From assembly GCF_001641615.1 (NCBI RefSeq), contig NZ_LRRU01000020.1, forward strand, positions 578,525-642,524: a DNA stretch of 64,000 bases, given 5' to 3'. A model generated the notes under the pieces. The model had not been told where the DNA came from. It ran no database searches and worked only from the letters and a program-made list of their open reading frames with translations. The stretch comes from Pseudoalteromonas gelatinilytica (GTDB taxonomy: Bacteria; Pseudomonadota; Gammaproteobacteria; Enterobacterales; Alteromonadaceae). Positions 49,643 through 64,000 of this stretch are shown one piece after another (the stretch's first letter is position 1; every line of letters starts with the position of its first letter). The translations under genes and the position numbers were made by a program.

Positions 49643-50653
49643 GTGACGAAACTTCAACACGTAAAAGCCATTGAAATTAGTATTTTGGTTTATCCCCATT
49701 TACTAATAACCAGTTTAACCTTGCCTATCGAAATGCTCAGAGCTGGTGAGGCCTTTGCTAAAAGCCATCGTCAGCAGAACGAATTTAAACCTCTCAACAT
49801 CAATTTAGTGGCAAGCAGTCTAAAAGCGATCCCTAATCGTACTGGGCTGGCAATTATGCCCGATTGCGAAACCGTCACAGCGCCTGCTAGTGACTTAATT
49901 ATTGTGCCTGGGATTTGGCGAAACCCGCGTCCTGTGGTGAGCAAGCAGCAAAGTTTGGTGAATTGGCTTGGTGATTCTTGGCAGCAAGGCAGCCATATCA
50001 TTGGTGTTGGAACAGGTAATTGTTTAGTTGCCGAAGCAGGGTTATTGGATGGCCACCCTGCTACCACTCACTGGCATTACGCAGAGCAATTTAAACGTGA
50101 CTACCCTAAAGTGCAGCTTAAGCCTGACTTTTTCATCACACAGTCTGAGCGCATGTATACAGTTGCGAGTTTAAATGCCCTTGCCGATGTTATTGTGCAT
50201 ATTATTAGTCAATATTACGGACGAGAAGCGGCGCAACATGTTGAGCGTAATTTCTCCCATGAAATTCGTAAGCCCTATGAAGATCAGCGCTACCTTGAGG
50301 GTGCCGTCGATAAACACCCTGATGAACTCATCGCACAAATTCAATTTTGGCTAAAAAACAATTTAACCTCCGAACTGACTCTGCAAGAAATTGCAGCACA
50401 ATTTAGTTTAAGCTACCGCACCTTTACGCGCCGCTTTCGTCAAGCCACCAGCCAAACCCCTGTTGAGTATTGGCAACAGCTTAGAGTACAAACCGCAAAA
50501 GAGTTATTAGCGTCTTCAAATTTATCAATTCAAGAAGTTGCCCTAGAAGTAGGTTATAACGACCAAGGCCATTTAACTCGGGTATTTAAGAAAGTACTCT
50601 CACAAACACCCAGTGAATACCGTACCGTCGTTAGACGAAAACTATTTGGCTAA
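49643..50653 (+). CDS. GlxA-type AraC transcriptional regulator (DJ-1/PfpI + HTH)
   Basis: This 336-residue protein has an N-terminal DJ-1/PfpI-like domain (about 10-190; nucleophile-elbow-like G-V-G-T-G-N-C-L-V-A with C127) and a C-terminal AraC domain (about 235-330) with L-T-L-Q-E-I-A-A-Q-F-S-L-S-Y-R-T-F-T-R-R and I-Q-E-V-A-L-E-V-G-Y-N-D-Q-G-H-L-T-R-V-F-K-K. The start is GTG at 49643, with GGAG eight bases upstream. Members regulate amine, carnitine or amino-acid catabolism. It is divergent from fabY across 127 bases; control of fabY is possible but not implied by family knowledge. Confidence 0.87.
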   Translation: MTKLQHVKAIEISILVYPHLLITSLTLPIEMLRAGEAFAKSHRQQNEFKPLNINLVASSLKAIPNRTGLAIMPDCETVTAPASDLIIVPGIWRNPRPVVSKQQSLVNWLGDSWQQGSHIIGVGTGNCLVAEAGLLDGHPATTHWHYAEQFKRDYPKVQLKPDFFITQSERMYTVASLNALADVIVHIISQYYGREAAQHVERNFSHEIRKPYEDQRYLEGAVDKHPDELIAQIQFWLKNNLTSELTLQEIAAQFSLSYRTFTRRFRQATSQTPVEYWQQLRVQTAKELLASSNLSIQEVALEVGYNDQGHLTRVFKKVLSQTPSEYRTVVRRKLFG

Positions 50654-50772
50654 CTCTAAATAGCGAGAAATGTTCTAAGTCTAAGTCAGATAAATCATAT
50701 TTAAGTTGCTGAATTAAAAATTATTACTAAGCTTTTAGTTAGTTGTATTGGTATTTGTTTGAGTAAGAAAAA

Positions 50773-51972
50773 ATGTATCAGCTTGATTATGATGAATTAG
50801 TGCAAAGTTGGAATAAAACGCTCGAAGTTTTAGCCTTGTTTGCCGATGTACCCGTCGCCTTAGTAATGAAGGTAGAAAATAATATTATTAGTGTTTTTTC
50901 TAAAAACGATAATCAAGCAAACCCCTATGAAATTGGTGATAATGAAGAGTTAGAAGATTCAGGTCTTTACTGTGAGCATGTATTAAAAACCCAGAACTTA
51001 CTGAATATCCCCAACGCTCTTATTGATGAGGACTGGAAAGAAAACCCAGATATCAAACTTAATATGATTTCTTATTTAGGTTTACCAATATGTGCTGGAG
51101 ACACCACACCATTTGGCACTATTTGTATCCTTGATAGCAAACCCCATGAATACACAGAGCCTGTCATAAAACTACTCGAAACCATAAAGCAAAGCTTTGA
51201 AACGCAACTCAAATTGTTATACCAACAAAAGCAAGCGTTTGAACAACAACAATTTGCAGAACTGGCTACTCTAATTAGAGGGATTGCCCACGAGCTCAAC
51301 ACGCCACTTGGTAACTGCATTACCGCAGTTGATGTCACTCAACTTGCTGTCAAAGAAACACAAACACGGCTTGTGAAAAAACGCCTTAGCCAACAAGCCT
51401 TACAAAGCACATTAGAAACATTAATAAATACCAATGAACTCTTAGACAGAAACTTAACTTCATGTGCTTACAAGATACGTATTTTACAAGATTTGCTTTA
51501 TACCAAGTCACAATCAAGTAAAACAATCATGACGTTAGCTCAGCTTTCGGAGTCACTGTACAAACACTTAGAAGAACAAATAAAACATCGTGGTATCAAA
51601 TTAGATATTAATTATCAAAACCCTCACAGCCAATTCGAAGTTGAAATAGACTTGCTAAAACAAGTACTTTTTATTTTGCAGCAAAACTCAATTGAGCATG
51701 CGTTCAACAACATCGAAAACCCTGCTATAGAAATTGATATATATGATTTTGATGAGGTATTAAAAGTTCACTACACCGATAATGGCACCGGTATCAGCAT
51801 AAGTGAACAAAACTCCATTTTCACCCCATTTTATAAAGGTAAAAACAACCAATCAGGTATTGGGCTTGGCCTCAGCATTGCGAAGAAAATAGTTACTCAA
51901 CAACTACAAGGTGAAATCTGTGTTCAAGAAAGTAACAACGGCGCACACTTTTTGATTAGTTTACCGAAGTAA
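50773..51972 (+). CDS. soluble GAF-domain sensor histidine kinase, orphan
   Basis: The 399-residue protein has an N-terminal GAF domain (about 10-150; C-E-H-V-L, Y-L-G-L-P-I, F-G-T-I-C-I-L-D), a short coiled coil (about 135-165), an H-box with H173 in G-I-A-H-E-L-N-T-P-L-G, and an HATPase domain with N-box L-Q-Q-N-S-I-E-H-A-F, G1 D-N-G-T-G-I and G2 G-I-G-L-G-L-S-I-A-K. There is no signal peptide, membrane helix or receiver domain, and no response regulator is adjacent, so it senses a cytoplasmic signal and its partner lies elsewhere. A 119-base leader precedes it. Confidence 0.9.
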   Translation: MYQLDYDELVQSWNKTLEVLALFADVPVALVMKVENNIISVFSKNDNQANPYEIGDNEELEDSGLYCEHVLKTQNLLNIPNALIDEDWKENPDIKLNMISYLGLPICAGDTTPFGTICILDSKPHEYTEPVIKLLETIKQSFETQLKLLYQQKQAFEQQQFAELATLIRGIAHELNTPLGNCITAVDVTQLAVKETQTRLVKKRLSQQALQSTLETLINTNELLDRNLTSCAYKIRILQDLLYTKSQSSKTIMTLAQLSESLYKHLEEQIKHRGIKLDINYQNPHSQFEVEIDLLKQVLFILQQNSIEHAFNNIENPAIEIDIYDFDEVLKVHYTDNGTGISISEQNSIFTPFYKGKNNQSGIGLGLSIAKKIVTQQLQGEICVQESNNGAHFLISLPK

Positions 51973-51982
51973 GTAAATTAGT

Positions 51983-52423
51983 TTAAATGTCTTTTGTAAA
52001 TAAAATTTTGCTAGTCTGTGGGCAGCCTCTGTCTTCATAACCCACTATTGCATAGTCATTTTTGATAAGCAGACTCAGCATTGCAGGAAAACTGTTCATC
52101 GACTTAACTTTTATAGCTCGATAGCTGTGGGCTTTAGCCCATGCTTCTTGCGCGTTTAATAAAGCTTGCGCAATGCCCTGCCCTCTACATTCTGGCGCAA
52201 CCGCGCCAAGCCAACTATAAAAGATGTTTGAATCTAACGCATAACCCAGTTTGTAGGCCACAGGCTTATTATCGATATAGGTAACTAAAGCTAGGTGCTC
52301 GACCTCTGCACACTGTGCTTGTAATTTGCTAAGGGTATTTCGGCCATCAAACTCAGGAATTTGACTATCAACAAGTAACAAATCGTCTAAACTAGCAGGC
52401 TTTATCGTGTAACAAGGCTCCAT
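51983..52423 (-). CDS. GNAT family N-acetyltransferase
   Basis: This 146-residue single-domain acetyltransferase has the acetyl-CoA loop V-A-P-E-C-R-G-Q-G-I-A-Q-A-L-L at about residues 75-90, followed by I-K-V-K-S-M-N-S-F-P-A-M-L-S-L-L-I-K-N-D-Y. Its 3' end converges on the histidine kinase gene with a ten-base gap. The adjacent MgtC gene is 26 bases upstream on the same strand, so the two may be cotranscribed. Substrate unknown. Confidence 0.83.
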   Translation of the reverse strand: MEPCYTIKPASLDDLLLVDSQIPEFDGRNTLSKLQAQCAEVEHLALVTYIDNKPVAYKLGYALDSNIFYSWLGAVAPECRGQGIAQALLNAQEAWAKAHSYRAIKVKSMNSFPAMLSLLIKNDYAIVGYEDRGCPQTSKILFTKDI

Positions 52424-52449
52424 GACTCACTCTAATCTATTATCTAACT

Positions 52450-52944
52450 TCACTTTTCTTTTCGATAATACAACTTTGAATAGCGTTTTACACGGGCATG
52501 CACGCCGCGACCTAAACTCTTAAATTTAGCTTCAAGTACATCTACACCATATAAAATACCTACTACTAGCACAGATAGTTTTATTGCAGCTAGTAAGTTG
52601 TCGGTGGCAATGACAACACCAATTGATGCTAATACCCAGATCGTTGCAGCGGATGTTACACCAACTACCGCGCCATCTTTTGCAAGCATTACTCCGGCAC
52701 CTAAAAAGCCAATACCGGTGATAATTTGGCCCACTACACGTGAATGGTCTATCACATCGCCATGCAACATAAATGCAGTAGCAAGAAATAAGTAGGTACC
52801 TAACACAATGAGTGCGGAGGTACGAATACCAACAGGCTTACCGCGTAACTGACGCTCCATACCAATAATTGCGCCGCAAAATGCGGCGCTACCAATTGCT
52901 GACCAAGAATAAGGGGCAATATCAAATAAACTACTCAGAGTCAC
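52450..52944 (-). CDS. MgtC/SapB family membrane protein (second in window)
   Basis: This 164-residue protein has about five hydrophobic segments. MgtC motifs are C-G-A-I-I-G-M-E-R-Q-L-R-G-K-P-V-G-I-R-T, then V-G-Q-I-I-T-G-I-G-F-L-G-A-G-V and T-S-A-A-T-I-W. The intact G-x-E-R and G-I-R-T make it closer to classical MgtC than the copy at 46 kb. It lacks a C-terminal ACT-like domain and ends in a basic tail. It is followed by the GNAT gene and preceded by the GNAT-C39 gene, 30 bases upstream. Confidence 0.88.
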   Translation of the reverse strand: MTLSSLFDIAPYSWSAIGSAAFCGAIIGMERQLRGKPVGIRTSALIVLGTYLFLATAFMLHGDVIDHSRVVGQIITGIGFLGAGVMLAKDGAVVGVTSAATIWVLASIGVVIATDNLLAAIKLSVLVVGILYGVDVLEAKFKSLGRGVHARVKRYSKLYYRKEK

Positions 52945-52974
52945 TGTACTTCCAAATCAAACTAACAATTAAAA

Positions 52975-54078
52975 TTATAAATAAAAGGCCATCGCAGTGC
53001 TGAGTCTTGATGAACCAAAACTCGCCATTTTGTTAAAATCAGCTTTGGCTATTGGGACATGCTGACAATCAATCGCCAATTGTTTTTCGTTTTCACAAAA
53101 CGGGTCATGCACGTACAAGCAATGCTCATCAATATGCGTTACACACACCCAGTGCGGTGACTTTTTACCATCAAACCGATAGGTGCTGATCAATAACACC
53201 ACCGCTTTACCCTCAGCAAGCCAATCTTCAATCGAGGCCAAGGTTAACTCTTGATACCTCACAGGCAGTTTTGCAGCTATTGCTTCAGCCACAAACTGAT
53301 TGTGTACGGTATGCAAAATGGCTTTTTTCTTTTCGCTTCTTACCCCGTCAATAAACAAAGTATCACGGGTATTTAAAACTACATCAGCTTTAAAACCACG
53401 TTTCATTGCAGCAAGTGCTAACCCTAGAGGATGACAACCGCCATGCCCTGAAGTCATGAAGATAGTCGTGGCTTCACGCCATATATCCAGCTCTTTGAGT
53501 TGGCTCATTGCGGTATCATTCAAGGATGACATTGCCATTAATAGCGCCGCAGGACCACAGGTAAACTCGGTTGTTTGCTGATACCAAGGCGTGTGCTTAT
53601 CGGCATTAAATTCGATATTACGACGAATGTTTTTTTGCATTCGATGGGCATCACTATGGTCATCATAATAATCACTATAATGACCAAACACCTGGTAACC
53701 CAGTTTTTCATATAAACGAATTGCTGATTGGTTGTTTACCGCAACTTCTAAACGCATGTATAAACGGCCCCGTTTAGCCGTTTCATTTTCAAGCGCAAGT
53801 AGTAACTTTGAAGCAATACCTTTACCTTGCTGAGATTGCAAAACCGCCAGTGAATATAACCGAGCAAGGCGCGTCCCTTTGTGGCACCACACTAAACCAT
53901 AACCAACCAGTTGATTATCTACCTCAGCCACCATCAATAAGCCGTGGCTTGCGCTGATCCAGCGTTTTAAACTACGGCTACTTAATCTATCTTGGCTAAA
54001 GCTTTGCTCTTCAATGGCAACAAGAGCCGTCAAATCCGTTGCATTGGCAAAGCGGATTTGACAAACAGATGCGTTCAT
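52975..54078 (-). CDS. GNAT acetyltransferase / C39-like peptidase fusion
   Basis: The 367-residue protein is a two-domain fusion. An N-terminal RimI-like GNAT (about 5-150) has L-A-V-L-Q-S-Q-Q-G-K-G-I-A-S-K-L and N-Q-S-A-I-R-L-Y-E-K-L-G-Y. A C-terminal papain-fold domain of the C39/DUF3335 kind (about 160-367) has the candidate catalytic Cys174 (T-T-E-F-T-C-G-P-A-A-L-L), His309 (K-S-P-H-W-V) and Asp325 (Y-V-H-D-P-F). It overlaps the stop of the RimK-like gene by one base and is translated with it. The pair was predicted from comparative genomics to make or process a peptide; no precursor is visible here. Confidence 0.85.
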   Translation of the reverse strand: MNASVCQIRFANATDLTALVAIEEQSFSQDRLSSRSLKRWISASHGLLMVAEVDNQLVGYGLVWCHKGTRLARLYSLAVLQSQQGKGIASKLLLALENETAKRGRLYMRLEVAVNNQSAIRLYEKLGYQVFGHYSDYYDDHSDAHRMQKNIRRNIEFNADKHTPWYQQTTEFTCGPAALLMAMSSLNDTAMSQLKELDIWREATTIFMTSGHGGCHPLGLALAAMKRGFKADVVLNTRDTLFIDGVRSEKKKAILHTVHNQFVAEAIAAKLPVRYQELTLASIEDWLAEGKAVVLLISTYRFDGKKSPHWVCVTHIDEHCLYVHDPFCENEKQLAIDCQHVPIAKADFNKMASFGSSRLSTAMAFYL

Positions 54079-55472
54079 TAACCGCGGCCTCGTGCTTCTA
54101 GGCGTTGTTTAAACTCATCCATAATGATCATATAAAGCTCATCACCTAAATAGGCATCTTCGACTTTATGGTCGATACTCGGGTTGTCATTCACTTCTAA
54201 CACGTATGCTTTACCTTGATGCTCTTTAACATCAACACCATACAAACCTTTACCCACCGTTTTACAGGCTTTTAATGCTGCATCAAGTACCACTTTAGGT
54301 AGCTCAAACGTTGGCAAGGTTTCAAAACCACCTGAGAAAAAGCGTTTTGCATCATGGTTGTAAATTTGCCAGTGATTACGCGCCATTAAATAACGACACG
54401 CATAAATTGCACGGCCATTTAACACCCCGACACGCCAGTCGTATTCGGTGTACATGTACTCTTGTGCAAGCACAAGTGCACTAAACTCAAACAGTTCTGT
54501 TAACTTAGCAACTAACTCATCACGAGTAGCAACTTTAAATACGCCTTTTGAGAAAGAGCCTTCTGGCATTTTTAATACCAGTGGGTAGCTAAAGTTTGCT
54601 TCTAAACTTTCAATTGTCTCTTCACGTGTATCAGCCACAACGTGAGTTTTTAAACTCGGCACTTTTTGATAATTAAAGGCATCGTGCAAATACACTTTAT
54701 TACAACAGCGCAGTATTGACTCTGCATCATCAATCACCACTAACCCTAAGCTTTGTGCTTTACTCGCTAAACGATAGGTTGGATGGTCGATGGCCGTTGT
54801 TTGACGAATAAATAGCGCATCAAATTGTGCAATATTGGTAATTTCATCAAATGTCAGTGCTTGAGCATAAATACCATGTTTAGCGGCTGCTTTAATAAAT
54901 TTAGCAATGGCATCTTTATCACTTGGCGGCACTTTTTCTTGGTGATCAACCAATATAGCCATATCCCAACGGTAACGACGTTTTTTATCGTGAATACGCC
55001 ACACAGACTCGGTAAAGCTACTAAGTTGTTTTACAAACTCTGTAAAGCCAGTGTCATCTAATGATGCAATCGTGCCTTGCTTCACAACTCCTTGCTCATC
55101 ACACACCAAAATAGGCGCAGGATATTGTGAGAATAATGCTTTGGTTGCTTTACTTTGCTGCTCTTGATCTGTGTGACCAAAAAAGACAGTACCACCAGCG
55201 AGCTCTTTATGACGCGTGCTGTGCTCATCGCTACGGAGCGCATTAATTGTTTTTACACTCGGTAATACCTGATGCTTTCTCGCTTCAGCAAGCAAAGAAC
55301 AATAATAACCTTTACTTAAATACTGCCCTGTATCACACAAGTTTAAAATGCGCGTTTTTGGCTCATTATGTTTTGGGTAATCACGTAAGTAGGTGTCAAA
55401 GGTAATGACATTTTCGAAATTTTGAGCAATACGTTGCTCATTGTTATCAACCACAATCAAGGTTTTAAACAC
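54078..55472 (-). CDS. RimK-like ATP-grasp ligase with N-terminal RLAN domain
   Basis: The GTG at 55472 (F-K-T-L-I-V-V-D-N-N-E-Q) is chosen because TAGGA lies seven bases upstream and the family begins with this strand; the longer frame adds a hydrophobic stretch of 26 residues. It gives 464 residues. The N-terminal RLAN domain (about 1-170) contains Y-L-x-x-Y-P and L-C-D-T-G-Q-Y-L-S-K-G-Y-Y-C. The ATP-grasp part has F-S-Y-P-L-V-L-K-M-P-E-G-S-F-S-K-G-V, A-Q-E-Y-M-Y-T-E-Y-D-W-R-V-G-V and V-L-E-V-N-D-N-P-S-I-D-H (metal-binding E and N). It probably forms an amide bond between an amino acid or peptide and a carboxylate. Confidence 0.87.
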   Translation of the reverse strand: MFKTLIVVDNNEQRIAQNFENVITFDTYLRDYPKHNEPKTRILNLCDTGQYLSKGYYCSLLAEARKHQVLPSVKTINALRSDEHSTRHKELAGGTVFFGHTDQEQQSKATKALFSQYPAPILVCDEQGVVKQGTIASLDDTGFTEFVKQLSSFTESVWRIHDKKRRYRWDMAILVDHQEKVPPSDKDAIAKFIKAAAKHGIYAQALTFDEITNIAQFDALFIRQTTAIDHPTYRLASKAQSLGLVVIDDAESILRCCNKVYLHDAFNYQKVPSLKTHVVADTREETIESLEANFSYPLVLKMPEGSFSKGVFKVATRDELVAKLTELFEFSALVLAQEYMYTEYDWRVGVLNGRAIYACRYLMARNHWQIYNHDAKRFFSGGFETLPTFELPKVVLDAALKACKTVGKGLYGVDVKEHQGKAYVLEVNDNPSIDHKVEDAYLGDELYMIIMDEFKQRLEARGRG

Positions 55473-55571
55473 GACTTTTCCTAAATTAAGTCTTATGAAA
55501 AAAATGAAAACACCCAACCAATTAAGTGAACGCATGAGGCTAAACTTCACTTAACTAGATGGGTGCTTGAA

Positions 55572-55611
55572 ATACCAATACCCGAGAATTGGTAATTGCG
55601 CGTATTGGTAT
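55572..55611. promoter_or_regulatory. inverted repeat upstream of the RimK-like gene
   Basis: ATACCAATAC (55572-55581) and GTATTGGTAT (55602-55611) are exact complements 20 bases apart, with another ATTGGT inside the loop. It lies about 100 bases upstream of the ligase start and could be an operator or a leader hairpin. Confidence 0.4.
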
Positions 55612-55713
55612 AAGCATTAAGCTTGATGTGATTTATAGAGGGTTTTTAGCTTTGTGACCAACGAGTTATTTTTTACCTTAAGATGAAATTTATTGATTAA
55701 TAAACTTTCTAGA

Positions 55714-56190
55714 TCAGAGTATTTCAGTAATGTTGTAAAACTGCTTATTTCCTGCAATAGTCAGTGTTACTTCATCATCAATTTGCTTGCCAATCAGTTG
55801 TTTACCTAACGGCGCTTCTCGGGTTACAACATAAATCGGTTGCTCTTTTACGGTGACCACTAAGCCACCAGCACTTGGACCCATAAAGAACCACTTTGCG
55901 TTATCTTGCTCATCGATAAGACACACTAATGCACCTTCACGAACCTTATTAAATTCGCTTTCTTTAAACACCGTATTGAATGCCTGAATATCACGGTAGC
56001 ACTCATTAACTCGCTCAGCTTGCCCTTGCGCTAAATAAGCGGCTTCTAAACCCAAGGTATCGTATTGAGTTTCAGCAACACTTTCTTCGTGAGTTGCTGC
56101 ATCATGGGCCGCTTTTGCCGCTTCTTTAGCGTTTTGCAGTTGTGCCTCAAGCGCAAAGCGTAAATGTTCAATTACGTGTGTTTTATTCAT
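55714..56190 (-). CDS. GreA/GreB family transcription elongation factor homologue
   Basis: The 158-residue protein has an N-terminal helical hairpin (about 1-75), with A-A-T-H-E-E-S-V-A-E-T-Q-Y-D-T-L-G-L-E-A-A-Y-L-A at its tip region, where acidic residues act in Gre factors. The C-terminal FKBP-like domain has A-P-L-G-K-Q-L-I-G-K-Q-I-D-D-E-V-T-L, the Gre/Rnk signature. It is likely to bind RNA polymerase through the secondary channel; whether it stimulates cleavage is not known. It stands alone, downstream of the secDF terminator. Confidence 0.85.
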   Translation of the reverse strand: MNKTHVIEHLRFALEAQLQNAKEAAKAAHDAATHEESVAETQYDTLGLEAAYLAQGQAERVNECYRDIQAFNTVFKESEFNKVREGALVCLIDEQDNAKWFFMGPSAGGLVVTVKEQPIYVVTREAPLGKQLIGKQIDDEVTLTIAGNKQFYNITEIL

Positions 56191-56207
56191 ATCAAAGCAG
56201 TTAAAAC

Positions 56208-56241
56208 AGAAAAGCCGCTATTCTATGGAAAAATAGCGGCT
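56208..56241 (-). terminator. intrinsic terminator of secD-secF
   Basis: A 10-bp perfect stem (AGCCGCTATT/AATAGCGGCT) with a 9-base loop is followed on the minus strand by TTTCTGTTTT, 25 bases after the secF stop. Confidence 0.88.
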
Positions 56242-56266
56242 GATGAAAGTAAGTTATAAAACTGAC

Positions 56267-57187
56267 TTACGGCATCTCCATATAGGCTTTGGTTTTATCA
56301 TCCAGTGTTTGGGTGTAATTTTCTGAACTTAACCCCAATAACTGCGGCAAGGTCGCGGCGATACAAATCGATGAGAATGTCCCCACCACAATGCCCACAA
56401 ATAACGCGATAGCAAAACCCGTTAATGCAGCCCCTGCAAGCAGCCAAATACAGGCAATGGTCGCAAGTGTTGTGCCTGAGGTGATCAATGTACGCGTTAA
56501 CGTAGAGCCAATTGCATCATTAATCACAACATGGGTATTTATGCGTTGATTGTCTGGCTGAATACGTAAAAGCTCTCTGACTCTGTCGCCAACAATAATT
56601 GAGTCATTTAATGAATAACCAATAATAGCCAGTAAACTCGCAAGCACGGTTAAATTAAACTCAAGCCCTAGCAAGGAAAACAAACCAAGCACTAAGATTA
56701 AATCATGTAACAGTGCAACCACTGAACCTACTGCGAGTCGCCATTCAAAGCGCACGGCAAGATAAACCATAATTGCAATCAGCGCTGCAAATAAAGCTAA
56801 ACAGCCCTGTTCAAAAAGCTCATCACCCACTTGTGAGCCTAAAAATGAGCTAGATAATACGCTATAGTCGACGCCTTGTTCATTCAGCTCTGCTTGCCAA
56901 GTACTCGCTTTGCTAGCCTCTGGTGCTTCTCTTAAAACAAAGTGATATTCACCCGCTTTACTTATGGCTAATTTACTCGCAACCTCGGGGCTTAACTTTG
57001 CCTTTAAATCAGCAATTGTCGTGACTGACGTTGTGTTAATTTCCGTGATGTAGCCACCTGTAAAATCAAGGCCAAAGTTTAGCCCTTTTACAGATAAAAC
57101 ACTTAAGCTCGCGATGACTAAAACACAACTTAGCAGTAATCCTAAAACGCGCGCTTTACTCGGTGCAGTTAATGTTGACCAACTCAT
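56267..57187 (-). CDS. secF: protein translocase subunit SecF (second-type)
   Basis: SecF forms with SecD the proton- or Na+-driven motor that pulls preproteins from SecYEG into the periplasm. The 306-residue protein has six transmembrane segments, the first at about 15-33. It contains G-L-D-F-T-G-G, I-I-G-Y-S-L-N-D-S-I-I-V-G-D-R-V-R-E with the conserved Asp, and T-L-T-R-T-L-I-T-S-G-T-T. Its ATG overlaps the secD stop by four bases. No yajC or tgt is nearby, unlike the housekeeping secDF locus. Confidence 0.93.
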   Translation of the reverse strand: MSWSTLTAPSKARVLGLLLSCVLVIASLSVLSVKGLNFGLDFTGGYITEINTTSVTTIADLKAKLSPEVASKLAISKAGEYHFVLREAPEASKASTWQAELNEQGVDYSVLSSSFLGSQVGDELFEQGCLALFAALIAIMVYLAVRFEWRLAVGSVVALLHDLILVLGLFSLLGLEFNLTVLASLLAIIGYSLNDSIIVGDRVRELLRIQPDNQRINTHVVINDAIGSTLTRTLITSGTTLATIACIWLLAGAALTGFAIALFVGIVVGTFSSICIAATLPQLLGLSSENYTQTLDDKTKAYMEMP

Positions 57188-58995
57188 GCTTTAGCCCCCG
57201 TTAAATTAGTTAGTTTAATGTAGAGTGTTTGGCTAAGCGCTTTCGAAATATAAACGCCAGTAAAGACACTGGTTAATAGCCCAAGCGCTAACGTGATTGC
57301 AAAGCCTTTCACCGGCCCATAACCAATGGCGTATAAAATAATTGCCGTGATCATCGTAGTCACATTGGCATCAAAAATGGTCGTAAATGCTTGGTTATAA
57401 CCTTGCTCAATCGCTTGATATGTAGGTCGACCTTTGCGCTTCTCTTCTTTTATTCGCTCAAAGATAATCACATTGGTATCCACTGCCATCCCTATCGTCA
57501 GAACAAGCCCTGCAATACCCGGTAAAGTCAGTACAACCCCCGGTAATAACGACATTAAACCAACTAAAGCCGTTAGATTAAGCAATAAAGCAATATTGGC
57601 AATCAGCCCTAAGCGACGATACCAAAGCGCCATAAAGGCAAGGGTAATACCGATACCCAGCATTAACGCTGCTAAACCGTGTTCAATGTTTTCACTACCT
57701 AAGCTTGGGCCTATGGTTTGTTCTTGAACGATTGTCACTGGCGCTGTGAGCGACCCTGCGCGTAGTAAAAGCGCTAAATCGTAAGCTGCTTGCGGGCTTT
57801 TCATATTAGTAATGCTAAAACGAGAACTTAAATGCTGGGCAATGTTTGCTACATTGATCACTTCGCTTTTTTTCACAACGTCGCCATTCGCATCCCGCGA
57901 GTATTCAGAATACACCGTGGCCATTGGTTTACCTATGTTGTGCTTTGAAAAAGCAGACATCGCATCGCCACCTTGCGAATCTAAACTAAGCTGAACTAAA
58001 GGCTTGCCCCATTCATCTTTGCCAACACTGGCATTATTAATGTGATCACCTGAAAAAATCGCCATCGGATTTAAATTAACAACGCCACCGCCTTGTACAT
58101 TAAACGCTTTACCACCGACTTCGACGACCTGGTAAAAATCAAGGGTCGCAGTTGCACCAATAATACGTTTCGCTTCTGATGGGTCCTGCACACCGGGTAA
58201 CTCAATACGAATGCGCTGCTTACCTTGTCTTTGCGTTACCGCTTCAGTAATACCAAGCTCTTCAATGCGACCACGCAGGGTTGTTAAGCTTTGCGCCATA
58301 ACTTGTTTATTGAATTCGTTTTGGCTTTGCTCATTAAAATGCAGTAATACCGTGGTTAGGTTATTCGTTGTTGATTTAGTTTGCATCAGGCCTTTGAATT
58401 GACCTTGTAACGTTGAGACAAGTCCTGCAAGTTGCTCCTCACCACTTGGTAAAATTTGTAACTCAACCCCATCTTTTACTTCACTTGCCCGGATCCCACG
58501 AATTTTGTCTTTACGAAGCGTCAATTTAGTTTGTTGATACACACTGTTTAAGTGCTCTTGCATTGCTTTATCTAGGTCAACATCAAGCACAAATAAAACG
58601 CCACCATTTAAGTCGAGTCCTAATTTAATCGGTGAAAGACCCAGCTGCTGGAGCCATTGTGGGCTTGTCGCATGCTCAACAATTTTAGCCTCTAGCTGTG
58701 GGTATTGCGTTTTTATAAAGCTCAACGCATTAGCACTTTGAGTCGGCTCAGCTAATAAAATAGCCAGTTGTGCTTGGCTATCATTGGCTTCAGTCACTTC
58801 AAAACCATGTTGATTTAGTGACGTTGTCACACTTTGCAGCGTCACAGTTTGATCTGGCAAGCTAATGTGCAACCAAGATTTGTTAGGGTAAAGGTTAGGT
58901 AGTGCGCTAACCGCTAATAAAATACACGCCGCTATCATAGCGACATAACTCATTTTTAGACGACGCCATAGCGCCGGCTTAGATTTATGTGACAT
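57184..58995 (-). CDS. secD: protein translocase subunit SecD (second-type)
   Basis: The 603-residue SecD has an N-terminal helix (about 16-34), a large periplasmic P1 domain and five C-terminal helices with G-M-A-V-D-T-N-V-I-I-F-E-R-I-K-E-E. The motif after P1-base is K-L-G-L-D-L-N-G-G-V-L-F, with Asn where many SecD proteins have Arg, which suggests a paralogue. The ATG at 58995 is preceded by a GGAAGGAAG whose bases are complementary to the end of the upstream leader gene. This predicts translation control by ribosome position on that leader. It probably acts as the inducible secDF2. Confidence 0.93.
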   Translation of the reverse strand: MSHKSKPALWRRLKMSYVAMIAACILLAVSALPNLYPNKSWLHISLPDQTVTLQSVTTSLNQHGFEVTEANDSQAQLAILLAEPTQSANALSFIKTQYPQLEAKIVEHATSPQWLQQLGLSPIKLGLDLNGGVLFVLDVDLDKAMQEHLNSVYQQTKLTLRKDKIRGIRASEVKDGVELQILPSGEEQLAGLVSTLQGQFKGLMQTKSTTNNLTTVLLHFNEQSQNEFNKQVMAQSLTTLRGRIEELGITEAVTQRQGKQRIRIELPGVQDPSEAKRIIGATATLDFYQVVEVGGKAFNVQGGGVVNLNPMAIFSGDHINNASVGKDEWGKPLVQLSLDSQGGDAMSAFSKHNIGKPMATVYSEYSRDANGDVVKKSEVINVANIAQHLSSRFSITNMKSPQAAYDLALLLRAGSLTAPVTIVQEQTIGPSLGSENIEHGLAALMLGIGITLAFMALWYRRLGLIANIALLLNLTALVGLMSLLPGVVLTLPGIAGLVLTIGMAVDTNVIIFERIKEEKRKGRPTYQAIEQGYNQAFTTIFDANVTTMITAIILYAIGYGPVKGFAITLALGLLTSVFTGVYISKALSQTLYIKLTNLTGAKA

Positions 58996-58999
58996 ACAT

Positions 59000-59067
59000 G
59001 ACTTCCTTCCGGCATTGTCAGCCGGTAAAAATTTAATTCCAAAAAATAAAAAGTAACGAAGGAAGTC
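59000..59067 (-). promoter_or_regulatory. RNA stem sequestering the secD Shine-Dalgarno
   Basis: On the minus strand GACTTCCTTC (59058-59067) begins two bases after the stop codon of the small upstream gene. Its perfect 10-base complement GAAGGAAGTC (59000-59009) contains the secD Shine-Dalgarno, ending four bases before the ATG. A 5-bp hairpin (CCGGC/GCCGG, 59009-59025) lies immediately 5' of that site within the loop. When paired, the secD start is closed. A ribosome halted at the end of the upstream gene would cover or unwind the left arm and open it. This is the same logic as vemP-secDF2 in Vibrio. Confidence 0.8.
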
Positions 59068-59069
59068 GT

Positions 59070-59507
59070 TTAGCTATGATAGATCGTATTGGCTTTGTAC
59101 AAGAGATTAGCGTCTTTCCAGCCACTAATGCGGGATTTACGTTGAGTGGCTAACGCAAACCATGGGATCACACGCACAGCACCTGGCGGCGCTAAAAAGT
59201 GCTCTTTTCCCCAATCTTCAGCAAAGAATTCAATCAATAGCTCGTAATCAGGATCAACCTGACTATGATAAAGAAACAATGATGAATTACTGGCAGTTAA
59301 ACGCGGCACAAGGGTATCAAACCCCGATGGTTCTACCGGTTTAGGGTGTTCAACTGTATGAGTTTGAGAAATAACTGGGGTTTTAGTCAGCTCGACTTGG
59401 AACAATTTAGTCGCAGCATAGTGTGAGTGATTGTCAGGCATAGCCATGCTCTGTGCACTAAAGAACACAGTAAATAGCAAGATAATGACTGAGAAAAACC
59501 GTAACAA
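59070..59507 (-). CDS. VemP-like secretion-monitoring arrest peptide upstream of secDF
   Basis: This 145-residue protein starts with TTG at 59507 and has a signal peptide, M-L-R-F-F-S-V-I-I-L-L-F-T-V-F-F-S, ending near S-M-A (22). A variable Pro/His-rich middle is followed by a C-terminal segment V-I-P-W-F-A-L-A-T-Q-R then R-I-S-G-W-K-D-A-N-L-L-Y, with Trp at residue 130, 15 residues before the end. This resembles the arrest region of VemP (Vibrio alginolyticus, 159 residues), which stalls the ribosome until it is pulled by the Sec machinery. Gene order leader-secD-secF, size, signal peptide and the SD-masking stem all agree. Assignment rests on recall of VemP, not an alignment. Confidence 0.8.
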   Translation of the reverse strand: MLRFFSVIILLFTVFFSAQSMAMPDNHSHYAATKLFQVELTKTPVISQTHTVEHPKPVEPSGFDTLVPRLTASNSSLFLYHSQVDPDYELLIEFFAEDWGKEHFLAPPGAVRVIPWFALATQRKSRISGWKDANLLYKANTIYHS

Positions 59508-59592
59508 GAACTGACCAATAAATTAAGCGGATAACAGGGCTATAATGAGGGTAAAAAAATAAAACACAAGGTATTACTTAAATAAAAGTAAC

Positions 59593-59622
59593 TAAAATAA
59601 AGCGAGCCTAACTAGACCCGCT
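59593..59622 (-). terminator. terminator after the alcohol dehydrogenase gene
   Basis: An 8-bp stem including two G-U pairs (AGCGGGTC/GGCTCGCT), a 6-base loop and TTTATTTT follow on the minus strand, 17 bases after the stop. It separates this gene from the secDF operon. Confidence 0.7.
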
Positions 59623-59638
59623 TAGTTAGTTTAACTTT

Positions 59639-60694
59639 TTAAACAAGTGAAACTTCTAATGATGACATGTCGATAACAAAGCGTGAGGCCATATCACCTT
59701 GCTTTAATTTATCGAATGCGTCATTAATTTGGTCCATATTGATCATTTCGACTTCTGGCAGAATATTATGTAACGCACAGAAATCGAGGATCTCTTGGGT
59801 TTGCGCTATACCGCCAATTAATGAGCCAGCAACACGGCGACGCCCCATTAATAACGGCACTGAGTTAGACTCAGCAAGCTCACCTACTTGACCAACCAAT
59901 ACTTGCGTACCATCAATATCCAAAAGCGGAATATACGGCGTAAAGTCGTGTTTTACCGGAATGGTATTAATGATCACATCAAATTGATTAGCATGCGCTT
60001 GCATGGCTGCTTCATCACTCGATACCAATAAATCTTTTGCGCCATAAGATAAAACCTGCTGTTTTTTCTTATCACTACGGCTAATTGCCGTAACATGTGC
60101 GCCCATTGCAGCTGCGATTTTAATCGCCATGTGGCCTAAACCACCTAGCCCAATCACACCAACACGGCTACCTGGGCCGACATTCCACGTGCGTAGTGGC
60201 GAATACGTTGTGATACCCGCACATAGAATTGGTGCACATTTAGCAAGGTCTAAGCCTTTTGGCACGCTCAATACAAACTCTTCACGCACCACAATGTGCT
60301 TTGAATAACCACCTTGAGTGAGTTCACCACTGATACGGTCTTGTCCTGAGTAGGTTCCTACCATCCCTTCGCGACAAAACTGCTCTTCACCGTGATGACA
60401 CTGGTCACAGCTTAAACAGCTATCAACCATACAACCTACAGCGACATTATCGCCTACTTTATATTTTGTAACGCCACTGCCTACTTCAAGGACACGGCCA
60501 ACAATTTCATGGCCTGGTACGACAGGATACTGAGTCCAGCCCCAATCGTTTTCTGCTGTGTGTAAGTCTGAATGGCACACGCCACAATACAGAATTTCAA
60601 TTGATACATCTTCATCACGAAGTGCACGGCGTTCAAAATGATACGGCTCTAATGGTTTTTCAGAATCATGTGCTGCATAACCGACGGTTTTCAT
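59639..60694 (-). CDS. zinc-dependent NAD(P) alcohol dehydrogenase (YahK/CAD type)
   Basis: This 351-residue medium-chain dehydrogenase has catalytic zinc ligands C40, H62 (G-H-E) and C158, structural zinc ligands C93, C96, C99 and C107, and Rossmann motif G-L-G-G-L-G-H at 182-188. The sequence G-V-C-H-S-D-L-H-T-A-E-N-D-W-G and V-P-G-H-E-I-V-G-R-V place it with the cinnamyl-alcohol/aldehyde reductases such as YahK, which reduce aldehydes with NADPH. It probably detoxifies aldehydes. It is divergent from an ABC exporter across 162 bases that hold an inverted repeat. Confidence 0.92.
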   Translation of the reverse strand: MKTVGYAAHDSEKPLEPYHFERRALRDEDVSIEILYCGVCHSDLHTAENDWGWTQYPVVPGHEIVGRVLEVGSGVTKYKVGDNVAVGCMVDSCLSCDQCHHGEEQFCREGMVGTYSGQDRISGELTQGGYSKHIVVREEFVLSVPKGLDLAKCAPILCAGITTYSPLRTWNVGPGSRVGVIGLGGLGHMAIKIAAAMGAHVTAISRSDKKKQQVLSYGAKDLLVSSDEAAMQAHANQFDVIINTIPVKHDFTPYIPLLDIDGTQVLVGQVGELAESNSVPLLMGRRRVAGSLIGGIAQTQEILDFCALHNILPEVEMINMDQINDAFDKLKQGDMASRFVIDMSSLEVSLV

Positions 60695-60758
60695 GCTTAC
60701 TCCTTAATTTTCTTCGTGTTTAACTCATGCAATTAACTAATTTGCTAATGCACTGGTG

Positions 60759-60776
60759 TATACTTCACTCAGTATA
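60759..60776. promoter_or_regulatory. inverted repeat in the adh/ABC exporter divergent region
   Basis: TATACT (60759-60764) and AGTATA (60771-60776) are perfect half-sites six bases apart, about midway between the divergent alcohol dehydrogenase and ABC exporter genes. Candidate operator; no regulator gene is adjacent. Confidence 0.4.
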
Positions 60777-60856
60777 GAGGTAAATTTGCAAAGTTCACTT
60801 GCCTAAAACACGAAAGCTTTTGCCTATTTTTATCAAATTGATTTTAAGAGACCCCC

Positions 60857-62647
60857 ATGCGTGGAATGAGCCGCAAAGAACAGGTGACAAGATCGCCTGA
60901 TGCAATGAACCTATCACAAAGCATCAAAACACTCTGGCCCTATTTAATGACCTTTAAAGGCCGCGTTATTTTAGCCGTCTTAGCGCTTATTGCTGCAAAA
61001 GGCGCCACATTGCTGATGCCTTGGGCACTAAAAGAAATAATTGACGCGGTTGATGCGAGTATCAACCCGCTATTAAGCGTTCCTATTGCCTTGCTGATCG
61101 CCTATGGATTACTGCGCTTTGCCAGTGTGTTTTTTGGTGAAGTACGCGATGCATTATTTGGCCGTGTTACAGAGCACGCAATGCGCCATATCGGCTTAAA
61201 AGTATTTAAGCACTTGCACAGTTTAGAGCTTGCCTTTCACCTTGATAGGCAAACAGGTGGTATCAGTCGCGATATAGAGCGTGGTACAAATGGCCTCAGT
61301 TTTTTAATGCGCTTTTTGATGTTTAACATCGTGCCAACCCTATTTGAAATAATCACAGTAGCCATTATTTTTGCGACCTTATTTTCACCGTGGTTTGCAT
61401 TGGTTACCGTAATCGTGGTCGCTATTTACATTGCTTTTACTGTGATTGTAACGCAGTGGCGAAACCGATTCATTCGTGAAGCAAATACTGCTGATAATAA
61501 CTCTAATACCCGTGCTATCGACAGCTTGCTAAATTACGAAACCGTTAAGTACTTCAACAATGAACACTATGAAGCAAACACCTACGACAGCTTTTTAGCT
61601 AAATGGGAGCAAGCGAGGCTTAAAAATCGTTTATCTTTACTGGCACTTAATTCAGGGCAAGCACTTATAATCGCCGCGGCTATTACAGCGCTAATGTGGC
61701 TAGGTGCCAGCTCAGTGGTCAATAAAGAGCTGACAATAGGTGAGCTTGTGATGATCAATGCTTATATGATCCAGTTATTTTTACCACTTAACTTTTTAGG
61801 TTTTGTTTATCGTGAGATACGCCGAGCGCTGACTGACCTTGAAAATATGCTGGGGCTGTTAAATCGAAAAGCCGCCATTAGCGATGACAAAGATGCAAAA
61901 CCATTAAAAGCAACCAAAGCAGCTATTCGATTTGAAAATGTGTCGTTTAGTTACGACAAACAAAGGCCAATTTTAAATAACTTAAGCTTTGAGGTTACGT
62001 CTGGCAGCAAAGTGGCGATTGTGGGTGCCAGTGGCGCAGGTAAAAGCACTCTAAGCCGCCTGCTCTACCGCTTTTATGATGTTGATGCGGGTAAAATTTA
62101 TATCGATGAGCAAGCAATCAACACAGTAACACTTGAAAGTTTGCGCCAAGCTATTGCCATCGTACCGCAGGATACCGTGCTATTTAACACCAGCATTCGC
62201 GAAAACATCGCCTATGGAAATCCAACGGCAAGCGAAGATGAAATTGATAAAGCCATAAGCCTTGCCCATTTAGATGGATTTATTGCCAGCCTAGACAAAG
62301 GCGATAAAACCCTTGTTGGTGAACGCGGTTTAAAAGTATCAGGCGGTGAAAAACAACGCATTGCAATTGCCAGAGCCATTTTAAAAGGTTCACCGATTTT
62401 ATTATTTGATGAGGCAACATCGGCGCTAGATTCGCATTCAGAACAAGCCATTCTCAGCGCGATGCGTGAAGTTGCACAAAGACATACCAGCTTAGTCATT
62501 GCGCATCGTTTATCAACAATTACTGACGCAGACAAAATTATTGTTATGAAACAAGGACGGGTTGTTGAGCAAGGTCAGCACCATCAACTGCTTGCAGCGA
62601 ATGGTGAATACGCACGAATGTGGCAGTTACAGCAAAGCGAAGAATAA
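60857..62647 (+). CDS. Atm1/HMT1-type ABC exporter (permease-ATPase fusion)
   Basis: The 596-residue protein fuses a six-helix exporter domain (about 20-320) and an ATPase domain. Walker A G-A-S-G-A-G-K-S is at about residue 392, the signature V-S-G-G-E-K-Q-R at about 494, and Walker B L-L-F-D-E-A-T-S-A-L-D-S soon after. The segment L-N-Y-E-T-V-K-Y-F-N-N-E and F-H-L-D-R-Q-T-G-G-I-S-R-D-I-E-R-G are specific to the Atm1/HMT1/ABCB7 group, which exports glutathione conjugates or heavy-metal thiolates. It works as a homodimer in the inner membrane. The start Shine-Dalgarno is weak; an ATG three codons later is possible. Confidence 0.9.
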   Translation: MRGMSRKEQVTRSPDAMNLSQSIKTLWPYLMTFKGRVILAVLALIAAKGATLLMPWALKEIIDAVDASINPLLSVPIALLIAYGLLRFASVFFGEVRDALFGRVTEHAMRHIGLKVFKHLHSLELAFHLDRQTGGISRDIERGTNGLSFLMRFLMFNIVPTLFEIITVAIIFATLFSPWFALVTVIVVAIYIAFTVIVTQWRNRFIREANTADNNSNTRAIDSLLNYETVKYFNNEHYEANTYDSFLAKWEQARLKNRLSLLALNSGQALIIAAAITALMWLGASSVVNKELTIGELVMINAYMIQLFLPLNFLGFVYREIRRALTDLENMLGLLNRKAAISDDKDAKPLKATKAAIRFENVSFSYDKQRPILNNLSFEVTSGSKVAIVGASGAGKSTLSRLLYRFYDVDAGKIYIDEQAINTVTLESLRQAIAIVPQDTVLFNTSIRENIAYGNPTASEDEIDKAISLAHLDGFIASLDKGDKTLVGERGLKVSGGEKQRIAIARAILKGSPILLFDEATSALDSHSEQAILSAMREVAQRHTSLVIAHRLSTITDADKIIVMKQGRVVEQGQHHQLLAANGEYARMWQLQQSEE

Positions 62648-62721
62648 ACACTGTTAACTAGTAGTTTAAATGATTAGAATAACCGCTTTATTTTTATCTA
62701 TAACAAAAAGGCAACACGCAG

Positions 62722-63435
62722 ATGGGCAGAGCTTATCAAAACAAAAAAGACTCAATGGCAAAAACTGCGGGTGCAAAAACCAAAGTTTATTCAAAGTACG
62801 GAAAAGAAATTTATATCTGCGCTAAGAATGGTGGTGTTGATCCCGATGGCAACTTAGCGCTTCGTCGCTTAATTGAGCGTGCTAAAAAAGACCAAGTACC
62901 TACGCATGTAATTGAGCGTGCAATCGATAAAGCCAAAGGCGGTGGCGGCGAAGATTACGTAGCAACTCGCTATGAAGGTTACGGCCCGGGTAACTGTATG
63001 ATCATTGTTGACTGTTTAACCGACAACAACAAACGTACCTTTGCTGACGTACGTGTTTGTTTTACAAAAGCGAATGCAAAAATTGGTGCGCAAAACTCAG
63101 TATCACACTTATTTGATCACCTCGCTATTTTTGTATTTGATGGTGATGATGACGAGGCTGTTTTAGAAGCACTAATGATGGCTGATGTAGATGTAACAGA
63201 TGTAGAAGTTGAAGACGGTAAAGTGACTGTATTCGCTCCACACACTGAATACAACAACACCCGTACAGCACTTGAAGAAATGGGAATTACTGATTTCCAC
63301 GAAGATCTAATTGCTTTTGTGCCGCAAGTAGAAGCACCCATTGAAGGTGAAGACGTTGAAGTCATGGAACGCTTTTTAGCCATGCTAGAAGACTGTGACG
63401 ACGTACAAAACGTTTACCACAACGCACAGTTTTAA
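62722..63435 (+). CDS. YebC/TACO1 family protein (YeeN-like)
   Basis: This 237-residue protein has the family N-terminus [14 protein letters not shown], then [13 protein letters not shown] and Y-E-G-Y-G-P, and a strongly acidic C-terminal domain. The YebC family was called a transcription regulator but members are now linked to ribosome rescue at polyproline stalls. The divergence from YebC proper and the length place it with the second paralogue often named YeeN. A strong terminator follows. Confidence 0.9.
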
Positions 63436-63437
63436 TT

Positions 63438-63463
63438 AAAAAGGCCAACCAAGTTGGCCTTTT
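63438..63463 (+). terminator. intrinsic terminator of the YebC-family gene
   Basis: A 10-bp stem (AAAAGGCCAA/TTGGCCTTTT) with a 5-base loop, immediately after the stop. The T-run is part of the stem's 3' arm. Confidence 0.85.
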
Positions 63464-63488
63464 ACCTTTTAGCCCAAAGGAATCAACA

Positions 63489-64000
63489 TTGAATACCCTC
63501 GAAGAGTTAAAAGCCGGTTCTCTACTAGGTTGTACACGGCTTCAGCTTGTTGCAGAACTAACTGAATTGCCAAAAGAAATTTATACCCTAGCCGATACGT
63601 TAGAAATCCTCGATTTATCTAATAATCAGCTAAGTGATTTACCTGACGATTTTTACAAATTAAAAAATCTCAAACGGCTGTTTTTATCATTTAATCAGTT
63701 TAAACATATTCCAGACGTGCTAAGAGAATGCCCAAACTTAATCATGGTGGCATTTAAAGGTAATCAAATTACTGAATTTAAAGCGCACTGTTTGCCAACG
63801 CAGATTGAATGGTTAATCTTAACTGATAATCAAATCCCCGCTTTACCAGATACATTTGGTGAGTACAGCAAGCTTAAAAAGCTCGCACTGGCAGGTAATC
63901 AGTTAACACATTTGCCAGTCTCAATGGCTAATTGTAAAGAGCTTGAGCTAATACGTTTAAGTGCCAATAAACTTACAAAAATTGAAGATTGGCTTTTAGC
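63489..64000 (+). CDS. leucine-rich-repeat protein (kinase) N-terminal part, cut by window edge
   Basis: The frame starts at a TTG (63489, M-N-T-L-E-E-L-K-A-G-S-L) with AAAGGAA seven bases upstream and is open to the edge, 170 residues. Repeats of 22-23 residues with L-x-x-L-x-L-x-x-N-x-L are clear: L-E-I-L-D-L-S-N-N-Q-L, L-K-R-L-F-L-S-F-N-Q-F, I-E-W-L-I-L-T-D-N-Q-I, L-K-K-L-A-L-A-G-N-Q-L and L-E-L-I-R-L-S-A-N-K-L. I recognise this N-terminus as that of bacterial proteins with a C-terminal eukaryote-like protein kinase domain, about 430 residues long, but the kinase part lies outside the window. Confidence 0.8.
   Translation, partial: MNTLEELKAGSLLGCTRLQLVAELTELPKEIYTLADTLEILDLSNNQLSDLPDDFYKLKNLKRLFLSFNQFKHIPDVLRECPNLIMVAFKGNQITEFKAHCLPTQIEWLILTDNQIPALPDTFGEYSKLKKLALAGNQLTHLPVSMANCKELELIRLSANKLTKIEDWLL

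Follow-up and report, generated by a model that had tools for sequence, protein, structure and literature searches.

The locus considered here raises the question of what the open reading frame immediately before secD2 does, and whether it could govern synthesis of the second SecDF of its host in the way that VemP does in Vibrio. In a 2024 paper, the vemP-secD2/F2 operon is called specifically conserved among Vibrio species (PMC11470409). We refer to the whole stretch of Pseudoalteromonas DNA that was analyzed, 64,000 nucleotides in length, as the window. The features on which the argument draws are as follows.

59070..59507, minus strand: leader open reading frame of 145 amino acids with a TTG start, a putative VemP-family arrest leader (from the open reading frame, alignments and profile)
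59442..59507, minus strand: probable Sec signal peptide, leader residues 1-22 (MLRFFSVIILLFTVFFSAQSMA), read by eye
59223..59306, minus strand: second conserved block, leader residues 68-95 (PRLTASNSSLFLYHSQVDPDYELLIEFF), from invariant residues and codon comparison
59073..59138, minus strand: predicted arrest core and C-terminus, leader residues 124-145 (KSRISGWKDANLLYKANTIYHS), from alignment and conservation
59070..59072, minus strand: leader stop codon, TAA
59058..59067, minus strand: anti-Shine-Dalgarno (anti-SD) arm GACTTCCTTC, +3 to +12 after the leader stop
59000..59009, minus strand: Shine-Dalgarno (SD) arm GAAGGAAGTC of secD2, the exact complement of the anti-SD arm
57184..58995, minus strand: secD2, 603 amino acids, the likely regulated target (SecD model matches)
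56267..57187, minus strand: secF2, 306 amino acids (SecF model matches)
59600..59623, minus strand: terminator-like hairpin separating the leader from the adh-like gene upstream of it

The leader and its likeness to VemP

The leader, secD2 and secF2 lie on the same strand, with 74 nt from the end of the leader to secD2. The secD2 product scores above the cut-off of TIGR01129 and just below that of NF009545 (714.9 vs 728). The TTG start of the leader occurs at the same place in all 12 window-clade loci that were parsed (L017-L025, L027-L029), and the N-terminus, read by eye, is hydrophobic with an AQSMA-type end. Because a terminator-like hairpin separates the adh-like gene from the leader, we suggest that the leader and secD2 are carried on a separate transcript from that gene; terminator-like sites number two in the stretch against 0.7 expected from shuffles, and no consensus promoter was found. 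No tRNA was found in positions 50000-64000 of the window. The genome holds two copies of the SecD gene, one on contig C3 and one on C13, each adjoined by a SecF-like match. From its sequence and place, we take the open reading frame before the C3 copy to be YajC, not a leader.

The initial annotation had likened the C-terminal end of this exported protein to the arrest region of VemP. Residues 126-137 of the 145-residue open reading frame before secD do read R-I-S-G-W-K-D-A-N-L-L-Y around Trp130, as it had described. The segment RISGWKDANLLY conforms to the consensus RxxxWKxxNxxY (R126, W130, K131, N134 and Y137), given as the VemP-family rule in its description (PMC10987492), and agrees with the VemP chain of PDB 5nwy, HRISGWKETNAMYVALNS, over RISGWKxxNxxY. 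Similarity to VemP in this segment, whose absence had been named beforehand as a refuting result, lies beyond chance: local alignment of the two C-termini scored 53, a value reached by none of 20,000 shuffles (best 41). A profile built on the C-terminal 50 residues of secD leaders from other families, 33 in all, ranked the window leader first among 886 window frames, with an E-value of 1.6e-12 against 0.26 for the next best.

Direct searches were less telling. No match at E<=10 was returned from the PDB by phmmer for either the whole leader or its last 49 residues, and no family in Pfam or NCBIfam matched the leader at E<=1. A profile of the genus leaders found VemP 5nwy weakly (E 0.063), behind a lipoprotein at 0.057. 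Since the single-sequence searches find no VemP, the link to VemP rests on the core and on intermediates. Judged by its sequence, the window leader is a member of the VemP family.

The arrangement at the window locus shares much with that of V. alginolyticus VemP as described in the literature (PDB 5nwy; PMC5449182, PMC7793623, PMC11470409): a leader with a probable export signal stands before secD2F2, the C-terminus carries R-I-S-G-W-K-x-x-N-x-x-Y, an SD-sequestering stem (predicted here) follows, and the genome holds a second SecDF. The differences are also clear. The window leader has 145 residues vs 159, and is identical at 7 of the 15 specified positions of HRIXGWKETNAMYVXLNXX. VemP L153 and N154 are replaced by Asn and Thr, and the stretch after the core Tyr is KANTIYHS rather than VALNSQFS, in keeping with the initial annotation's remark that the residues beyond the Trp differ. 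The SHS and Arg85 pair of VemP is absent, the window leader having LFLY at 77-80 and no Arg at that distance after it, and the central block Q-x-x-P-x-Y-x-L-x-x-E-F is a feature of the window leader that distinguishes it from V. alginolyticus VemP.

Among other arrest leaders, a close likeness is to the VemP-like family of Fujiwara et al. (2024; PMC10987492), described as secDF upstream open reading frames with RxxxWKxxNxxY and a localization signal; the window leader has the position and the motif, and a probable signal as read by eye. The 339 VemP-like sequences counted there may include Pseudoalteromonas. The same source describes the Alteromonas leader uDF_RQH_Enterobacterales, which also precedes secDF2, is followed by a stem that partly masks the SD, and induces secDF2 by its arrest, but which has an RGPP-type motif where the C-terminus of the window leader has none (PMC10987492). 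By eye, the RQH-family motif (R/Q/H)-(A/G/D)-(P/G/S)-(P/G) does not occur in the last 45 residues of the window leader. SecM/secA and MifM/yidC2 follow the same monitoring-substrate logic that we propose for the window leader, with unrelated arrest sequences and different targets.

Conservation in Pseudoalteromonas and a Cys-core class

Eight named loci with the same leader, at 72-98% identity, all belong to Pseudoalteromonas. We searched 108 genomes of the genus for SecD, taking matches of 573 bits or more as SecD2-type and counting by hand. SecD2 was present in 76 genomes, and the remaining 32 had only the other SecD copy. Every one of the 76 SecD2-bearing genomes has the leader, in 75 upstream of secD2 and in one (G073) on a separate contig from secD2; the G073 leader is 94% identical to that of the window. 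The 74 leaders that were parsed lie within 238 nt of the aligned SecD2 start. At L089 (genome G039) the leader, its Cys core intact, is more than 600 nt from the secD2 open reading frame. Pseudoalteromonas SecD2 forms one clade (100/98) in a midpoint-rooted tree of 80 SecD2 rows and one SecD1.

The parsed leaders fall into two classes, 49 with the S[GY]W[KQH] core (class A) and 25 without it (class B); with G073 (class A) and L089 (Cys core) added, the counts are 50 and 26. All 49 parsed class A leaders keep the R, S, W, N and Y of the core unchanged, so that the conservation among relatives that the VemP reading called for is present. The codons of R, S, N and Y vary: four are used for Arg, and Asn is AAC in 25 leaders and AAT in 24. 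Class A leaders end in TYH[SA] up to the last codon (T in 47, Y in 45 and H in 44 of 49).

We compared the window leader codon by codon with its 72% relative L029. The two differ by 2 synonymous and 2 non-synonymous codons over residues 1-22, by 11 synonymous and 21 non-synonymous over 23-62, by 16 synonymous and 2 non-synonymous over 63-100, by 7 synonymous and 11 non-synonymous over 101-122, and by 7 synonymous and 4 non-synonymous over 123-145. These differences point to two constrained regions, one being the core at the C-terminus and the other a central block around FLYHSQVDPDYELLIEFF. Within this second block F78, L79, Q83, P86, Y88, E93 and F94 are invariant in the 26 rows of alignment A1. 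The block precedes the Trp by ~40 residues, is also present in the leaders before S41-peptidase genes described below, and at arrest would presumably sit close to the exit of the tunnel.

The class B leaders (loci L067-L093 except L075) follow the majority pattern PW[YH]xC...G[FL]I[DN]xC[KQ]xANL. Cys replaces the core Trp in all 25 that were parsed, the core Arg is lost, and the class accounts for 26 of the 76 SecD2-bearing genomes; a Cys-core leader also precedes secD at L248, a locus from another genus of the family. Comparison of the two class profiles gave a match of 84 columns (E 5.9e-17), and the Cys-core profile A2 found no match in the PDB at E<=10. The SecD2 proteins of 11 class B rows form one clade inside the genus (100/99), with class A on both sides under the midpoint root, and because of this nesting the Trp-to-Cys change looks derived. 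Work on V. alginolyticus VemP reports that W143A abolishes arrest (PMC7793623), so class B leaders must stall another way or have lost stalling.

Related leaders before secD, S41-peptidase and dedA genes

Outside the genus, the class A profile at E<=0.01 matched 103 of 395 genomes in a family-wide sample, spread over 22 of 52 genera, and 83 of 394 in an order-wide sample, spread over 20 of 114 genera, samples that overlap and counts that include some chance matches. In the class sample the leader was found in only 2 of 369 genomes, both from the window's own family; 18 of the 22 genomes listed for this sample are outside the order. We read 100 loci (L113-L212), a subset of the profile matches, and 99 had a leader-like open reading frame: 66 before secD, 27 before an S41-peptidase gene, 4 before dedA and 2 by chance. 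L163 and L165 were rejected as leaders, being unlike leaders and having neither secD, S41 nor dedA downstream, and no leader open reading frame was found at L167. In all 66 secD leaders W is present with K, R, H or Q as the next residue, and 60 fit RxxxWKxxNxxY exactly, a tally that leans toward Trp-bearing leaders because they were found with the class A profile. Together with the 76 SecD2-bearing Pseudoalteromonas genomes, these 66 secD loci in other genera of the order carry VemP-type leaders, as recognized by sequence, beyond Vibrio, as the initial annotation had supposed.

The leaders before genes other than secD are the following.

L075:3006-3410, L153:2941-3351, L155, L156, L161, L168, L191, L198 and others: leaders directly before S41-peptidase genes
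L166:2459-3004, L172, L207 and L208: leaders with [GA]GWKESN before a DedA/VTT (yqjA-type) gene

In the S41 target, PF03572 is accompanied by a PF11918-like domain at the N-terminus. When 16 S41 leaders were made into a profile and compared with that of class A, the alignment covered 78 columns, central block and core among them (probability 99.4%, E 2.6e-21), and the S41 leader profile finds the window leader at E 1.4e-12. The core is looser in these leaders: of 28, one fits RxxxWKxxNxxY, and 27 have W with K, R or H as the next residue. Two of the 27 S41 leaders among the 99 leader-like frames are from Pseudoalteromonas. Across the 108 genomes of the genus, the S41 gene (49-100% identity) is present in eight, with a leader in front in all eight (L213-L220, where L213, L216 and L218 are the genomes of L075, L154 and L153), and none of the eight has SecD2. 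A motif scan of seven loci with more distant S41 paralogues (L221-L227, 35-36% identity) turned up no leader, and a profile scan of two of these loci also found none. Genome G426 has two S41 leader-peptidase pairs on one contig (L155 and L156) and a secD leader on another (L117). At L237 (G159) an S41-type leader with a broken core, lacking SGWK, precedes a protein with a hydrophobic N-terminus that the S41 query does not match; this gene is a possible further target.

At all four dedA-leader loci mzrA is present. The L166 MzrA carries SecD-TM1 (PF13721, 2e-20), and the window SecD also matches the MzrA model (4.7e-6). In one E. coli record (exuR-yqjA-mzrA), YqiM, the 27-residue product of the only annotated open reading frame between exuR and yqjA, was considered as a leader remnant and rejected, having no VemP core; none was found in the six frames of that interval either.

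The S41, dedA-mzrA and Cys-core leaders all lie beyond what the initial annotation covered. We found no description of them in the literature searched, which excluded most subscription papers, and they would be new variants if they stall. There is an even chance, in our estimate, that VemP is one branch of a wider arrest-leader family in the order, a tunnel module that became attached to targets such as exported S41 peptidases and the DedA-MzrA pair, whose MzrA bears the N-terminal domain of SecD, and was rebuilt with Cys in one Pseudoalteromonas clade. If so, an activity other than SecDF could be the one monitored, and a single stalling core would be shared among different sensors. Through the Trp-less class and the S41 and dedA-mzrA leaders, the parts responsible for the stall and those that sense export can be told apart directly.

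A predicted stem over the secD2 Shine-Dalgarno sequence and a proposed mechanism

Ten perfect base pairs join the bases that follow the leader stop to the Shine-Dalgarno sequence of secD2. We compared the duplex of each SD region with its upstream sequence across 47 gene starts of the window, and the secD2 stem, at about -17.7 to -17.9 kcal/mol, ranked first against a median of -8.1. Folding of the 151-nt region was only modestly better than that of shuffles (z -1.59, 18/200 as good). Among genus relatives the SD varies (AAGGAAG, ATAAGGA, AAAGAGA, GATGAGTGA, ATAATGAG and others) and the post-stop bases vary to match. The mean over 54 distinct genus arm pairs was -8.7 for a pair's own arms, -5.9 for swapped arms and -5.0 for a shuffled arm, although only 26 of the 54 beat 95% of arm shuffles; extending the 5' arm to 18 nt ahead of the end of the stop gave 28 of 65 pairs that did so. 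By these comparisons, the arms of the predicted stem co-vary within the genus. In 64 of 74 genus loci the SD is predicted to lie largely within pairs (P unpaired < 0.3); for L051, L052 and L088 such pairing is not predicted.

The same test gave less among secD leaders of other genera, where 8 of 59 pairs passed with the narrow arm (median at chance level, 0.455) and 9 of 60 with the wide arm. In these genera starts were called by rule and some target open reading frames are cut, and badly called starts may contribute to the weak result. An SD with P unpaired < 0.3 occurs there in 33 of 60 loci, as a raw count. Among 27 S41 leaders the narrow arm gave 8 passes and the wide arm 16; of the four leaders before dedA, one passed.

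The open reading frame, its core and the conservation of that core, the predicted stem with its co-variation in the genus, and the presence of two SecD genes are observed. Taken with the precedent of VemP, they make it very probable that this is an export-monitoring arrest leader of the VemP type that opens secD2 translation when export fails, with stalling, the stall site, release by force and the regulation of secD2 modeled on that precedent. The signal peptide would bring the nascent chain to the Sec translocon. Were export by the main SecDF poor, the core R126-x-x-x-W130-K131-x-x-N134-x-x-Y137 would hold the ribosome near the end of the open reading frame. The VemP P-site residue is Q156, 13 residues after W143, in the structural work (PMC5449182). 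By analogy, a stalled ribosome would hold Tyr143 in its P-site, with two sense codons left ahead of the stop. The usual toeprint distance puts a ribosome at Tyr143 ~4 nt past the stop, and such a ribosome would touch the base of the stem. By disturbing the stem just past the stop, the halted ribosome would free the SD of secD2 so that SecD2F2 is made; working export would pull the chain and release the ribosome, and the stem would close. The stem, which the initial annotation lacked, is the regulatory half of the mechanism proposed here.

According to the same structural work, VemP contacts the tunnel through R139-A752, W143-uL22, K144-U747 and Y150-C2610, and N154 contacts U2506 and U2584 (PMC5449182). 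The window leader keeps the residues that match R139, W143, K144 and Y150 and does not keep N154; for this reason the fixed part of the module seems to be the contacts at the constriction, and its lineage-specific part the residues next to the peptidyl-transferase center. Natural variation would thus separate a fixed portion (Arg, Trp, Lys, Asn and Tyr) from variable residues by that center.

Other readings of the locus must be set against this one. The stem begins 3 nt past the stop, so a terminating ribosome would disturb it too, and class A leaders conserve TYH[SA] to the last codon, so the stop codon may take part; termination-site pausing or plain translational coupling could then regulate secD2 without an export-sensitive stall. 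We regard this as unlikely, since coupling alone leaves unexplained the invariant R-S-W-N-Y core, the signal peptide and the match to the VemP residues that contact the tunnel.

The leader might instead act, once exported, as a small periplasmic partner of SecDF and cause no arrest, as its signal peptide, its second conserved block and its place beside secD2 in 75 of 76 SecD2-bearing genomes (the last split over contigs) would allow. A C-terminal end that matches the VemP arrest core, an SD stem that co-varies in the genus, and related leaders before S41 and dedA genes make such a role very improbable. We give equally little weight to an independent arrest leader that came to resemble VemP by convergence. 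Direct similarity to V. alginolyticus VemP is indeed confined to about 20 residues, but the leaders of in-between families share both the core and the downstream gene, theirs is the profile that finds the window leader at E 1.6e-12, and Pseudoalteromonas SecD2 forms a single clade in the midpoint-rooted tree.
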